Origin: a bacterium | GTDB lineage: Bacteria > Actinomycetota > Acidimicrobiia > Spongiisociales > JAENVV01 | NCBI GenBank assembly: GCA_024641305.1 | Contig: JAHEDI010000036.1 | Coordinates: 1 to 32,234, forward strand | Direction of reading: 5' to 3' | Length of the DNA stretch: 32,234 nt | Shown here: in pieces, positions 27,349 to 31,827 of the stretch | Layout: each line of letters opens with the position of its first letter | Numbering within the stretch: the first letter of the stretch is position 1 | Program-made: the position numbers and the translations under genes | Notes under the pieces: model-generated | What the model was told of the DNA's origin: nothing | What the model saw: the letters and a program-made list of their open reading frames with translations, nothing else | Database searches by the model: none

Positions 27349-27379
27349 TATGACGTATCTTGTCTCAGGAGACCTAATC

Positions 27380-28318
27380 ATGCGGAAAGTATCAGTTGTC
27401 GGCGCCGGAAAATATGGTTCGCTCACCGCCATGCGGTTGGCTGAATCAGGCATTGTTGACGAAGTAGTCATGACGGACATCGTAGAGGGTCTGCCACAGG
27501 GTCTGGCTCTCGACATGAATCAGTCCCGACCCGTCGAGAATTATTCGACCAAAGTGCTCGGCACGAATGATTATGCCGACACGGCGGGCAGCGAGGTCGT
27601 GGTGATCACCGCCGGTCTGGCTCGCAAACCAGGCATGAGCCGGATGGACTTGCTGGAGGTCAATGCCAAAATCGTCAAGGGCGTGACCGAGTCGATTCTC
27701 GAATACTCGCCCGACGCGATTTTGGTCGTGGTAACCAATCCACTTGATCACATGACGACGCTGGCGTTCGAGGTTTCGGGACTGCCGTCACACAAGGTGA
27801 TCGGGCAAGCCGGAATCCTGGACAGCTCCCGGTTCGTACACTTCATTTCTGAGAAGCTCGGCGTGGATATTTCCGAGGTCAAGGCAATGACGCTCGGTAG
27901 CCACGGAGACACGATGGTCCCGGTCCCGTCCCAATGCAGCGTTTCAGGCAAGCCCCTGACCGAGGTGCTGTCTCAGGCAGACATTGACGAATTAGTGGAC
28001 CGCACCCGAGCTGGTGGTGCTGAGATCGTCGGTCTCCTCAAGACCGGGTCGGCCTATTTCGCCCCGTCGTCGGCTGCCGCCGCGATGGTCAAGGCGATCA
28101 TCACGGACTCGAAAGAGGTCATGCCAGTGTGCGCGATGACGTCGGGTGAGTACGGCATCGAGGGCGTGTATCTCGGTGTGCCAGCCCGCCTGGGAGCGAA
28201 GGGTATCGAAGAGGTAGTCGAGCTGGACCTGACAGCTGACGAGAGGGCCCTGCTGGTAGATGCGGCCGGAGCCGTCAAAGCCAAGGTCGACGAACTGCAC
28301 TCGATCAACTTCGACTAA
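27380..28318 (+). CDS. mdh: Malate dehydrogenase (LDH-like, NAD-type)
   Basis: 312 residues, oxidising malate to oxaloacetate. The ATG at 27380 has a CAGGAG site; the earlier ATG at 27350 sits almost on the candidate -10 and lacks a site. Motifs: VSVVGAGKYGSLTAMRL (4-20), with Asp33 after the second strand indicating NAD; ARKPGMSR (81-88) carrying the Arg pair of the substrate loop, the malate rather than lactate form; VVTNPLDHMT (117-126); and SSRFVHFISEKLGVD with GSHGDTMVPVP (173-183, catalytic His175). The family (LDH-like MDH) is usual in actinobacteria and Chloroflexi. A strong hairpin follows 16 nt after the stop. Confidence 0.96.
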   Translation: MRKVSVVGAGKYGSLTAMRLAESGIVDEVVMTDIVEGLPQGLALDMNQSRPVENYSTKVLGTNDYADTAGSEVVVITAGLARKPGMSRMDLLEVNAKIVKGVTESILEYSPDAILVVVTNPLDHMTTLAFEVSGLPSHKVIGQAGILDSSRFVHFISEKLGVDISEVKAMTLGSHGDTMVPVPSQCSVSGKPLTEVLSQADIDELVDRTRAGGAEIVGLLKTGSAYFAPSSAAAAMVKAIITDSKEVMPVCAMTSGEYGIEGVYLGVPARLGAKGIEEVVELDLTADERALLVDAAGAVKAKVDELHSINFD

Positions 28319-28333
28319 CCGTGTGAACGCTCG

Positions 28334-28364
28334 AACCCAGGGTTTCCTGTGCGAACCCTGGGTT
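28334..28364 (+). terminator. Hairpin after mdh
   Basis: AACCCAGGGTT (28334-28344) and AACCCTGGGTT (28354-28364) pair perfectly over 11 bp around a 9-nt loop. No T-tract follows. It is the first of five AACCC-N-GGGTT copies around the AbiEi-DUF559 gene. Confidence 0.7.
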
Positions 28365-28365
28365 G

Positions 28366-28412
28366 TTCTCCGGGCCGCAGTGCGCGGAATCCGATAGTAG
28401 GAACCCAGGGTT
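28366..28412 (+). repeat. Left copy of a 41-bp direct repeat plus one AACCC-N-GGGTT element
   Basis: Positions 28366-28406 match 29376-29416 at 37 of 41 bases, with an unbroken 24-bp identical core (28383-28406). The copy runs straight into AACCCAGGGTT (28402-28412). It lies between the mdh hairpin and the AbiEi-DUF559 start. Confidence 0.85.
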
Positions 28413-28457
28413 GCCAGCTGGGCGGAATCTGTCAGAGGTCGGCTTCATAGTGGCCGG

Positions 28458-29366
28458 ATGAGCTACGAACGCACCATTGCCGAACTCGCCGCTGCGCACG
28501 GCGGACACATCACGCGATCACAACTTGTTGAGCTGGGGTTATCGGACCCGATGATTAGCCGACGAGTGGCAGCCGGGTTTCTAACCGGGGTCAAGTCTGG
28601 TGTTTATCGGACCTTTACTCCGCCCGACGACGATGCGCTTTTGCGTGGCGCTGTCCTGAGTCTCAGGGCGGCGGTCGTGTCGCACAGGTCGGCGGCCAGA
28701 ATCCACGCACTCGTGGTTCCCGCCGGCGGGCGTCCGGTCGTGACGGTTCCCGCATCGACCACGCACGAGTTCCCGGGTGTCGAGGTCCGCAGAACAGCCG
28801 ACCTCAGCCGACGGCATTGGACAGTCAAGACGAACCTGCCAGTTACTACTGTTCGGCGCACCGTCTTTGACCTTGCGTCCTGTATGGACGAGGACGCGTA
28901 TTGCGCACTTGTAGATGGTCTGCTGACTAGCCGGCGTTTGAAGCTCGGACAGCTAGCCGACTTACTCGGCGAGATCGGCGGGAAAGGGAAGCCCGGTACC
29001 TCGCTCGTCAGAGCGATTGTCACCGAACGAAGCGCTAGTGGTGACGATGATGCAACCCCGCTCGAACGGCTCGGGCTGAAAGTGCTTCGGTCGGGAGGAT
29101 GCGTTCCGGATGCAGTTCAATACGATCCGGGGTTTGTACCTGCCGTGCGCTTCGACGCCGCGTATCTTGGCTCGAAGGTCGCCATTGAGTGGGACAGCCG
29201 CCGATGGCATGCATCGGTGGAGCGTTTCCAGTCGGATCGGAACCGAGATCGCGTTGCCGCAACGTATGGATGGATCACGTTGCGGTTCACCTGGGACGAT
29301 CTCAAAACCCAACCTGACCGAGTGATTTCGCAGGTTCGGGCAGTGACCAAGCGTCGATCCGCCTGA
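28458..29366 (+). CDS. AbiEi-DUF559 fusion protein (antitoxin-like wHTH plus Vsr-like nuclease fold)
   Basis: 302 residues. The N-terminus (about 5-50, ELAAAHGGHITRSQLVELGL to GVKSGVYR) matches the AbiEi antitoxin-type winged helix. The middle (about 55-150) resembles the AbiEi middle domain. The C-terminus (about 195-295) is a DUF559/Vsr-like fold of the PD-(D/E)xK class: DATPLERLGLKVL, VRFDAAYLGSKVAIEWDSRR and a closing WITLRFTWDDLKTQPDRV. The E, D and E-x-D residues that would form the active site are present. No AbiEii-like toxin lies beside it. A CATAGT box (28446-28451) six nt before the ATG suggests a leaderless message. It is flanked by 41-bp direct repeats, suggesting insertion or repeat-mediated gain. 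Function in the cell is unknown; defence or mobile-element roles are guesses. Confidence 0.85.
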   Translation: MSYERTIAELAAAHGGHITRSQLVELGLSDPMISRRVAAGFLTGVKSGVYRTFTPPDDDALLRGAVLSLRAAVVSHRSAARIHALVVPAGGRPVVTVPASTTHEFPGVEVRRTADLSRRHWTVKTNLPVTTVRRTVFDLASCMDEDAYCALVDGLLTSRRLKLGQLADLLGEIGGKGKPGTSLVRAIVTERSASGDDDATPLERLGLKVLRSGGCVPDAVQYDPGFVPAVRFDAAYLGSKVAIEWDSRRWHASVERFQSDRNRDRVAATYGWITLRFTWDDLKTQPDRVISQVRAVTKRRSA

Positions 29367-29375
29367 TCTACCCGA

Positions 29376-29416
29376 TTCTCAGGGCCACAGCACGCGGAAT
29401 CCGATAGTAGGAACCC
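29376..29416 (+). repeat. Right copy of the 41-bp direct repeat
   Basis: Matches 28366-28406 at 37 of 41 bases, with a constant offset of 1010 bp. It starts 9 nt after the AbiEi-DUF559 stop and merges into the hairpin at 29412. Confidence 0.85.
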
Positions 29417-29434
29417 TGGGTTAAACCCAGGGTT
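29412..29434. terminator. Hairpin between the AbiEi-DUF559 and SCP2 genes
   Basis: AACCCTGGGTT (29412-29422) and AACCCAGGGTT (29424-29434) are perfect 11-bp inverted copies with one base between. Lying between convergent genes, it could end transcription from both sides. Confidence 0.65.
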
Positions 29435-29449: not shown

Positions 29450-29836
29450 TTAGTAGGCGACGTCGAGGGATTCGCCAGCAGATCCCCACTGGCTGATGAT
29501 GTTTTGGTTCATCATGAGGACCGCCAGGTTGCCGGTGACCTTGATCTTGCCGGTCATAAAGGCGGTCTGGGTGTTCATGTCACCTTTGGAAATGCCAGCG
29601 GCGGTGTCGTAGTCAGAAGAGATGGTGGCATCTGCGTCGGCGAGTTCTCCGAGGGCAACATTGGCCGACCCGTTCGAAATCGAGATGTAGTAACCAACCG
29701 GTCCGGACGGCGCGTCACTCACATTGAACTGAAGACCCAGGTTGGCACTCGCAATGGCACCCTGAAACCCGTCATGCGATGCAAGGGCTTCGCTATAGGC
29801 CGTGGCCCACTCTTCACTCAAAAACTGTACGGCCAT
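29450..29836 (-). CDS. SCP2 sterol-binding domain protein
   Basis: 128 residues with an AAGGAGTAG ribosome site before the ATG at 29836. The sequence runs FLSEEWATAYSEALASHDGF, then LGLQFNVSDAPSGPVGYYIS, a strand-rich core with GELADADATISSDYDTAAGI and SKGDMNTQTAFMTGKIKVTG, which is the classic SCP2 lipid-binding signature (MTGKIKVxGNL). It is soluble, with no signal peptide. SCP2 proteins bind fatty acyl or sterol-like lipids in a hydrophobic pocket. It follows the second tadG by 69 nt on the same strand but has its own possible operator/promoter; a functional tie to the pilus is not implied. Confidence 0.9.
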   Translation of the reverse strand: MAVQFLSEEWATAYSEALASHDGFQGAIASANLGLQFNVSDAPSGPVGYYISISNGSANVALGELADADATISSDYDTAAGISKGDMNTQTAFMTGKIKVTGNLAVLMMNQNIISQWGSAGESLDVAY

Positions 29837-29905: not shown

Positions 29906-31369
29906 CTACTTTGTGAGTTCGACGACGCCAAAGGTTGGTGTTCCGCCTCCGCCAGTCAGTTTGGTGCAGACTGGTTCAACGAGTTGCGTGCACCCGATGA
30001 TGACGGCGCCCAGCGAGTCAAGCTTTTGCTGGCCCTGTGGTACTACCGTCGTGGTTCCCACCATGCCTGGCTCGTGAACACACACTCCGCCCGCCACTCG
30101 GAGGTTGCCGGTGCAGTTAACGCTATCTTTCATGTAGATTCCCTCGATCCACATGGGTACCAAGAGTTCAACGTGATAGCAGCAGCTGTTATTGGCCAGC
30201 TTGGCAAGCTCCCAATACTTCGGAACAACAGATAGCCGTGGCGAGTCTGCAATGGAGGGCAAAAAGATGACACTGTTGGTCGTCTTTAGGCAGGTCAGCA
30301 TATCTGCCCATGCGGTTGCGTAGAGAGCTGGGGTTGCCGGTTGCGCCGGATGTCCAGCGGCTGCGACGCAGTTAGGTGATGCGACGCTCGTGTCGATGTA
30401 GGTCCAGAGAGCTCGATTGTCTATGCCCTTTCCAAAGATGGTCGCAGAGCCGTACGTCCCAGTCGCGACGGTGCCGCCGTTTAGGCGTCCTTTGAAGGCA
30501 CCACCCCATGTTCCGCCCTTCACGATCCCATCTGTAATGTCGGTATTCGAGTAGCCACCCGACGAGTCGACCATATTGGGCTTCGCAGGTCCCCCAAATT
30601 GCGGACAAGACGCGCCGTTGACAAGACCGCCGCCTGCCCCGCTCGGGTGCAATCCGAGTTGATGATCCATGCCCAACGCGATGATTCGTGACCTCGGCCC
30701 AGGTTGGCCTCCTGAAGTGCACTCATTCGGCCCGCTGTAGAAGTATGCATTGAACGTGCCGAAGTCGCCCGTCGAAGGATTGTCGCAACTCTCGACATTC
30801 GTGGAGCCGGTACCGGTCTTAAGACAGATTTCGGTTCCGCCCGCCGCTGAGAACGCGCCCGAAGGGAAGGCGAAGGCACCGCCGAAAGATGGTCGGACTT
30901 GAGCTTGAGCGAACGCTGAAACTTCAAGACCATTCGAGCCAACGAACACGCCGAAGACCGCGGGTACGTCGATTGTCGGAATCCGTACGCGTATTTCGGT
31001 ATAGGCCTCCGAGAAGCTGATGCAGTCGGAACCCCCGGCGACGCCAAGGTCGGTGAGCGTCCGCCGGGCTAGTGCATCTGGATCAGTGCAGGCTGCCCAG
31101 TCTCCAGCCGAAATCACGATGTCGTTTGCCGCGATCTTTGCGTAGACCTCTGTAACGGCAGCCGCCACGGCATCTGTTGCAGACGTCGTGGTGAACTCCA
31201 CCGCTCCGCCCAGCGCAGCAGCATCTGCAGCGTTCTGGGCGGCTCTCCGTTCGGTTGTGCCTAAACCCCAGTCGACCACAAGCGCCGCAAAACCAAGGAG
31301 CAAAACCATAACGACCGCCACGAGAACTGCCGTTGCTCCTCTTTCATTGTCACGCAGCCGATAAATCAT
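29906..31369 (-). CDS. Long TadG-like protein with Cys-rich extracytoplasmic region
   Basis: 487 residues from the ATG at 31369, which overlaps the tadE-like stop as ATGA (a TTG six nt earlier is also in frame). RDNERG-ATAVLVAVVMVLLLGFAALVVDWG is split here as leader ending NERG and membrane helix. It is followed by TERRAAQNAADAAALGGAVE, the Tad/TadG N-terminal signature. The remaining 430 residues are extracytoplasmic, Gly/Ser/Thr-rich and contain about 14 Cys, including SCCYH and pairs near CLKTG, CTSGG and CTQLVEPVC. No vWA MIDAS motif (DxSxS) was noticed. It is far from the main tad operon and on the opposite strand. Base composition looks slightly less GC-rich than neighbours (impression, not computed). 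Confidence 0.85.
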   Translation of the reverse strand: MIYRLRDNERGATAVLVAVVMVLLLGFAALVVDWGLGTTERRAAQNAADAAALGGAVEFTTTSATDAVAAAVTEVYAKIAANDIVISAGDWAACTDPDALARRTLTDLGVAGGSDCISFSEAYTEIRVRIPTIDVPAVFGVFVGSNGLEVSAFAQAQVRPSFGGAFAFPSGAFSAAGGTEICLKTGTGSTNVESCDNPSTGDFGTFNAYFYSGPNECTSGGQPGPRSRIIALGMDHQLGLHPSGAGGGLVNGASCPQFGGPAKPNMVDSSGGYSNTDITDGIVKGGTWGGAFKGRLNGGTVATGTYGSATIFGKGIDNRALWTYIDTSVASPNCVAAAGHPAQPATPALYATAWADMLTCLKTTNSVIFLPSIADSPRLSVVPKYWELAKLANNSCCYHVELLVPMWIEGIYMKDSVNCTGNLRVAGGVCVHEPGMVGTTTVVPQGQQKLDSLGAVIIGCTQLVEPVCTKLTGGGGTPTFGVVELTK

Positions 31370-31827
31370 GGGCAAGCAACGAATCCGGTGTTGGGCCAGG
31401 TCGCCGTTTGCTCAAGCCGCATTGAAATCTCGGAGTGGAGAGTCAACCCGTTGAAGAAAGGCAAAAACCCAACTAGAGGCTGGTATTGGTGTCGTACTTC
31501 AGCAAGCAGCTCTCCGCCGATTTGGCTTCCGGTACGTGTGAGCCTCATAGAAACATCAGCAGAGGCGTCGATGCGATCGCACGTTTCGAAAATGATCTTG
31601 ATGCTCTGATTACCCCCGCCATTTACAGGGGTGGCGTTGACCGCAGCGAGCCGCCCAGCCTCTCTTGCCGCGTGAGTGGCGTCTAGTTGACTGTTGAAGG
31701 CCCAGCCTGCTTCGACCATTCCAAAAATGAGGACCAGAAGGAGGGGCATGACGATGGCGAATTCGACGAGGGCGGCGCCGCGTTCGTCTTTGCCACGGTT
31801 ACGGAGTTTCTTCAAAAGTGTTCTCAT
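31366..31827 (-). CDS. tadE: TadE-like pseudopilin (second locus)
   Basis: 153 residues. The basic leader (RTLLKKLRNRGK) ends in DERG, followed by AALVEFAIVMPLLLVLIFGM, with Glu at +5 of the mature chain, the standard TadE pattern. VEAGWAFNSQLDATHAAREAGR matches the family's post-membrane helix. The rest is a short extracytoplasmic domain with two Cys. The start ATG at 31827 has only a weak GGATGG site; a TAACGT box (31884-31879, minus) may be the -10. It is translationally coupled to the long TadG-like gene. Confidence 0.9.
   Translation of the reverse strand: MRTLLKKLRNRGKDERGAALVEFAIVMPLLLVLIFGMVEAGWAFNSQLDATHAAREAGRLAAVNATPVNGGGNQSIKIIFETCDRIDASADVSMRLTRTGSQIGGELLAEVRHQYQPLVGFLPFFNGLTLHSEISMRLEQTATWPNTGFVACP

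Follow-up and report, generated by a model that had tools for sequence, protein, structure and literature searches.

Palindromic repeats accompany a family of solitary AbiEi-DUF559 genes in Acidimicrobiia: a possible small selfish element

The window, i.e., the whole stretch of 32,234 nucleotides analysed here, contains a small cassette between two conserved genes, those for malate dehydrogenase on the left (27350..28318, + strand; Pfam Ldh_1_N/C) and for an SCP2 domain protein on the right (29450..29836, - strand; Pfam SCP2). Among congeners, the products of these flanking genes have, respectively, 93.9-97.4% and 87.5-97.7% amino acid identity. The cassette is bounded by two repeat units in direct orientation, both on the + strand. 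The left unit, a member of a dispersed family, consists of the spacer TTCTCCGGGCCGCAGTGCGCGGAATCCGATAGTAGG followed by the palindrome AACCCAGGGTT (28366..28412), and the right unit is a spacer followed by the palindrome AACCCTGGGTT (29376..29422). Additional palindromes, to which no strand is assigned, extend the units into arrays: AACCCAGGGTT at 28334..28344 and AACCCTGGGTT at 28354..28364 on the left, and AACCCAGGGTT at 29424..29434 on the right. The alignment of close relatives that carry different gene types, A and B (see below), stops at the first of these palindromes and restarts at the last. Beyond the SCP2 gene, at 29906-31827, lie Tad/TadE-like genes, whose counterparts in three congeners (G001, G003 and G004; G000 is the genome of the window) look strongly diverged in comparison with SCP2. 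No Rfam family was matched in the window.

The original prediction, made from the sequence of the window, was of 41-bp direct repeats at 28366-28406 and 29376-29416 with a single gene enclosed, and both parts of it hold. The two segments share 37 of 41 bases, and ungapped extension lengthens the repeat to 47 nt with 89% match; the only gene between the units is at 28458-29366 (+). Chance repetition is ruled out, as equally spaced pairs of segments from other parts of the window match at 24/41 at best, and the 22-nt core GCGGAATCCGATAGTAGGAACC never occurs in shuffles of the window. A search for this core across the 3.42-Mb genome, which had been proposed as a check, has a two-sided outcome: with up to three mismatches the core is found in two places, both at this locus, and at lower identity it turns out to be one of a dispersed, genus-wide family.

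The enclosed gene (28458..29366, + strand) codes for a protein of 302 amino acids, identified by Pfam, the AbiEi models of PADLOC and an AlphaFold2 model (pLDDT 92.9). Residues 1-198 (28458..29051, +), an N-terminal winged helix with an antitoxin-type domain, are AbiEi-like, and residues 199-302 (29052..29363, +) form a Vsr/EDxHD-like nuclease part, recognised by structure, profile and alignment. In Pfam, AbiEi_4 is matched at 28.4 bits (cut-off 25) and DUF559 at 21.3 (cut-off 20.6), and the match to REase_MTES_1575 stays below that family's own cut-off; NCBIfam models gave no match to the protein. Comparison of the structural model aligns 179 of the first 198 residues with AbiEi of S. agalactiae (6y8q, Z 12.3), and Rv2827c (1zel) follows with Z 9.3. 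The best structural match of the nuclease part (200-302) is the catalytic domain of the homing endonuclease I-Bth0305I (3r3p, Z 13.4 over 96 residues), with Vsr (1cw0) at Z 11.0, and a search with the family profile detects 3r3p with E 0.003 and 3hrl with E 3e-8. Seven residues, D233, E244, D246, R248, H251, D260 and R263, are invariant in 44 family members, and all of them sit in the nuclease part. The predicted fusion of AbiEi with a Vsr-like nuclease, unaccompanied by a toxin, is thus borne out by the Pfam and fold matches and by the neighbours: adjacent to the gene are malate dehydrogenase and SCP2, so that the toxin partner AbiEii is absent from the locus, and no methylase stands beside the gene either. 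Cargo of a phage or plasmid was considered and ruled out, since the protein has no relatives in the phage and plasmid collections.

The unit of the repeat family is the 11-bp palindrome AACCCWGGGTT joined to a spacer of about 36 nt, which can often form a hairpin. The palindrome occurs in 59 copies in the 3.4-Mb genome, the reversed control sequence in none, and the family spans the whole genus; the copies make up about 20-25 clustered sites, single or in arrays. Occurrence at most terminators regardless of gene content, named in advance as the outcome that would speak against a special role of the repeat, is therefore not what the genome displays. Spacer hairpins vary in strength, the z-score against interior shuffles being about -1.5 for a second, 45-bp repeat family (see below) and about -0.7 for the AACCCWGGGTT family, and because of this variability we do not claim a conserved RNA. 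Copies were counted by pattern searches, and genome-wide placement was judged from 27 element sites of both repeat families in G000 by means of home-made gene calls: nine sites are in convergent, eight in tandem and four in divergent intergenic regions, two are within predicted genes, and four are unclassified. A lone AACCCAGGGTT in a predicted coding region (L179:1575-1586; G000:C48:2475-2485), conserved in G001 and G002, is probably a chance match. In another contig, two identical repeat arrays are separated by about 100 N (L171:13591-13921; G000:C23:118091-118420), from which we conclude that an assembly gap, or a masked stretch, falls inside a repeat array.

The same 27 sites were compared with G001 and G002. 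Those that could be recovered are mostly occupied in both relatives too, and at such conserved sites the number of units and the spacer sequence vary, though the flanks are often 93-97% identical. At one site (L178:1590-1661; G000:C39:36790-36860), an AACCCWGGGTT element stands between flanks of about 95% identity where G001 and G002 (L225/L212) have an unrelated, GC-rich, terminator-like hairpin, so that the element may replace a terminator or serve as one. No clean empty site bearing a target-site duplication turned up among the 27 sites in these two comparisons, which counts against the element explanation given below. As most comparable sites are common to close relatives, any spreading would seem to be slow, or to act chiefly nearby and through conversion; the pattern of sites fits slow gain together with conversion between copies.

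The junction between malate dehydrogenase and SCP2 can be read in four genomes of the genus (G000, G001, G003 and G004), and all four have the AbiEi-DUF559 gene between repeats. These genes are of two types. Type A comprises the window gene and its counterpart in G003 (85% amino acid identity), type B those of G001 and G004 (73%), and the two types are 48% identical to each other. The flanks pair the genomes differently: SCP2 is 96% identical between G000 and G001 and 98% between G003 and G004, as against 88% between these pairs, so the type of the gene contradicts the species tree. In close pairs, alignment is lost inside the AACCCWGGGTT palindromes. With types running against the species tree and junctions placed within palindromes, the cassettes appear to have been swapped, and exchange of cassettes bounded by repeats would be a simpler reading of the A/B pattern than differential loss. 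The units are direct in type A and inverted in type B, hence direct orientation is not diagnostic. The presence of the gene, with repeats on both sides, in all four readable congeners rules out recent simple insertion at this junction; no relative with only one copy of the repeat was encountered. What survives of the initial idea of a unit inserted or copied with its repeats, or gained through them, is that gene and repeats act as a unit and that exchange is repeat-bounded; a recent simple gain does not.

The A/B pattern could also have come from two ancestral genes in tandem, reciprocally lost without any exchange, which is unlikely in our estimate and is, in any case, compatible with the explanation that we prefer for the system as a whole. 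In the family tree, types A and B group as sisters, the divergence within type A is close to that of the flanks (third-position identity 65% vs 58-68%), and deletion would be helped by the repeats to either side. At least four reciprocal losses have to be assumed in this scheme, however, both types together at the junction were found in no genome, and third positions of type B are only 42% identical between G001 and G004, far below the 68% of the SCP2 flank.

Contig C62 of the genome of the window carries another AbiEi-DUF559 gene, whose product is 28% identical to that of the window gene, and the two form a crossed control. The C62 paralog is flanked on both sides solely by 45-bp units of the form CGAGTGTGC-N27-GCACACTCG, and the window gene solely by AACCCWGGGTT units. 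The 45-bp element has 18-38 copies in G000-G003, 2 in G004, 27 in G088 and 6 in G133; the remainder of 138 genomes lack it, and the reversed control is at 0 everywhere. Of the 131 genomes from outside the family, just 2 contain it. G088, a member of another family, has a gene with 41% identity to the C62 protein, situated between three 45-bp elements. Elsewhere in G088 (L188:1632-2942; G088:C36:21631-22941), three CGAGTGTGC elements surround about 1.1 kb in a two-then-one layout that resembles the AbiEi-DUF559 locus of that genome, and no AbiEi-DUF559 protein is detectable there. In their interiors, copies of the 45-bp element are 94% alike in G003, compared with about 60% in G000-G002, which suggests recent amplification in G003. 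In G004, a weak paralog match on C99 failed against the C62 protein, so that this genome probably has no second gene.

To see the gene in a broader setting, 54 loci of relatives were obtained, largely from Acidimicrobiia and mostly in unrelated contexts. Relatives with at least 36% identity often have AACCCWGGGTT directly outside the gene, on both sides. We compared the 260 nt before each gene with the 260 nt after it and set the threshold at 39, the highest inverted score in 1181 control windows from the same loci, where the 99th percentile for direct repeats was 34. Both flanks are available at 42 family loci, 31 of which score above this threshold; the other 11 have no strong repeat, which counts against reading gene and repeats as an element. 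Among clade loci from whole genomes, 21 of 26 have the palindrome on both sides, with some genomes overlapping the first set; the neighbourhoods of the gene in these loci are of ten or more unrelated kinds. More distant subfamilies carry palindromes of their own, namely GTCGAGTGTGC/GCACACTCGAC, GTTCGTTGTGC, CTGTTGTGCC and TCTGTGGAC. Sharing of palindromes follows protein identity (Mantel r 0.50, 0/5000 permutations): a repeat 9-mer is shared by none of the pairs below 30% identity and by 62% of those above 50%. The claim that the gene and its flanking repeats belong together is hence extended to the whole family, with palindromes specific to subfamilies.

Several of the exceptions have variant palindromes: TACCCWGGGTA (G034 and G092), AACCCWGGGCT (G017) and ACCTCAGGT (G121 and G130). 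In G034, where the gene is flanked by TACCCWGGGTA, the ensuing prediction was tested in 393 kb of sequence, which contains 10 copies of TACCCWGGGTA, 5 mixed ones, 2 of AACCCWGGGTT and none of 14 other end variants. The flanks of a more divergent member (L163 of G062, and L104) show a terminal palindrome CCTWAGG and long hairpins at both ends. Genus g8 is a true exception: in seven loci that were read (L264-L270; G011, G043, G031, G063, G038, G024 and G049), the clade gene, which is conserved in this genus, has no flanking repeats, and each genome has 0-2 copies of AACCCWGGGTT, which again counts against the element reading. The clade genes of this genus are, possibly, domesticated.

Gene and palindrome also co-occur across 138 genomes of the order, mostly fragmented metagenome assemblies. 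With the clade gene defined by a score above 245 bits, a threshold placed at a gap visible in the same data, at least five copies of AACCCWGGGTT are found in 34 of 51 genomes with the gene and in 8 of 87 without it (Fisher p 2e-12, a value that overstates independence because the genomes are related). Among genomes at least 90% complete, the respective proportions are 21 of 34 and 3 of 47. Contrasts within a genus agree with this: in g40, for example, 75 copies are present in G085, which has the gene, and 0-2 in six relatives without the clade gene. Copy number in gene-bearing genomes ranges from below 5 to 159, and several of the copy-poor ones carry variant ends. Eight genomes have five or more palindromes with no clade gene detected, several of them less than 90% complete; these, too, count against the element reading.

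The association of gene and palindromes, its specificity, the dispersal of the repeats and the A/B discordance with junctions in repeats are direct observations. They lead us to propose, with a probability of about 0.6, that the AbiEi-DUF559 gene supplies the enzyme for a small element, with the palindromic repeats as its ends and as its scattered relatives. Binding and cutting of the palindrome, and copying of the units and of the gene, would proceed as follows. The AbiEi-type winged helix would read the palindrome, a role suggested by the known ability of AbiEi proteins to bind inverted repeats; the Vsr/EDxHD nuclease would nick or cut at the palindrome or a related site; and repair from another copy would spread repeat units and overwrite those at existing sites. 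On occasion, the whole gene cassette would be exchanged between repeats, and the cassette bounded by the repeats at the mdh-SCP2 junction would be one in which two old types have replaced each other within the genus. Such an element would operate much as a REP/RAYT (REPtron) system or a free-standing homing endonuclease does, with an unrelated enzyme. The chances seem to us evenly divided on a broader proposal, that of an undescribed class of selfish elements in Acidimicrobiia, in which AbiEi-homing-nuclease proteins and cognate palindromes are propagated by nuclease-induced copying, with two orthogonal pairs in a single genome.

Three other accounts of the same data were weighed. Inverted repeats in the promoter are bound by AbiEi and by Rv2827c, both of which autoregulate (PMC7319586), and nearly every clade locus has palindromes upstream of the gene, so the winged helix might simply control its own expression, the dispersed copies being a regulon or decoys and the nuclease a defence function or a vestige, with nothing moving at all. 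Under this account, which we deem improbable, one would hardly expect the repeats downstream of the gene as well, nor their mostly non-divergent placement in G000 (4 divergent sites among 21 classified), nor the differences between species in copy number per site and in spacer sequence, and it is the nuclease residues that are invariant. About equally improbable is that other machinery spreads REP- or terminator-like palindromes, and that the gene inserts beside them or is swapped by homologous recombination. Junctions of types A and B within repeats are what homologous recombination would give, many sites are 3' of genes, and at one of them the counterpart in relatives is a terminator-like hairpin; against this, each of two repeat families in one genome brackets only its own paralog, a change of protein between genera goes with a change of palindrome, genomes that lack the gene have few repeats, and searches in the genus found no RAYT.

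A defence role, with palindromes that serve as labels of self DNA or as decoys and are kept by selection, would agree with the placement of AbiEi- and DUF559-type domains among proteins of defence and conflict (PADLOC models and, for the MTES_1575 REase, PMC3710099). It is the least probable of the three and, in our judgement, very unlikely: the gene has no methylase or toxin beside it, phage and plasmid records contain no relatives of its product, and the wide range of copy numbers in gene-bearing genomes fits a spreading repeat better than a self marker. We therefore favour the small element with its own nuclease over these accounts.

Dispersed palindromes are common in bacteria, and the enzyme family usually tied to them is that of the RAYT transposases; here, a different superfamily, found across Acidimicrobiia and annotated as antitoxin or DUF, pairs with its own palindromes. 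With partial coverage of the literature, we found no earlier report that ties DUF559 or AbiEi to palindromic repeats, REP, mobile elements or homing. Should the enzyme indeed act on these repeats, solitary AbiEi-DUF559 genes would acquire a function, palindromic repeats a second route of origin (some repeat families, such as CGTC-tagged REPs, have no known enzyme; PMC3733652), and there would be a set of naturally orthogonal pairs of protein and DNA site.

Parts of the system resemble several known ones. Residues 1-198 have the AbiEi fold of AbiE type IV toxin-antitoxin systems, so that binding of inverted repeats would be expected by analogy; unlike AbiE, there is no adjacent AbiEii, the protein is fused to a nuclease, and the repeats are on both sides of the gene and dispersed. 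Vsr repairs T:G mismatches beside Dcm. The nuclease part shares its fold with Vsr and belongs with the Pfam families DUF559 and REase_MTES_1575, but nothing at the locus points to mismatch repair. The closer likeness is to I-Bth0305I of the EDxHD family, in which a nuclease is likewise tethered to a DNA-binding part; assignment to the EDxHD/Vsr type is supported by the fold and by the invariant D233, E244, D246, H251 and D260. Homing of the I-Bth0305I kind would account for gene conversion at repeats, and both the A/B swap and the turnover in situ would be in keeping with it. In contrast to I-Bth0305I, the DNA-binding part is AbiEi rather than phage-type modules, the gene is outside any intron or intein, and the palindromes are dispersed. 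As regards a classical insertion sequence, the ends are inverted at many loci and direct at others, including mdh-SCP2.

In its layout, the system is most reminiscent of REP/RAYT (TnpA-REP), REPtrons and TIRtrons, in which a solitary, low-copy enzyme gene is flanked by palindromes dispersed between genes, sometimes with several enzyme-repeat pairs in one genome (PMC3733652, PMC8266576). The palindromes on either side of the AbiEi-DUF559 gene similarly recur at scattered sites of its own genome. RAYTs, however, are HUH tyrosine transposases (Y1_Tnp), and the enzyme in our case is a winged helix of AbiEi type joined to a Vsr/EDxHD nuclease; also unlike REPs, the units are 45-47 nt long and have no GTAG tag. 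A search for RAYT (PF01797) was negative in 4 of 4 congeners and gave matches in control genomes, which rules out RAYT-driven REPs in the genus. The enzyme being unrelated and RAYT not found, the system is not a REP/RAYT pair; if REPtrons are taken as the kind, it would be a REPtron variant with an unrelated enzyme.
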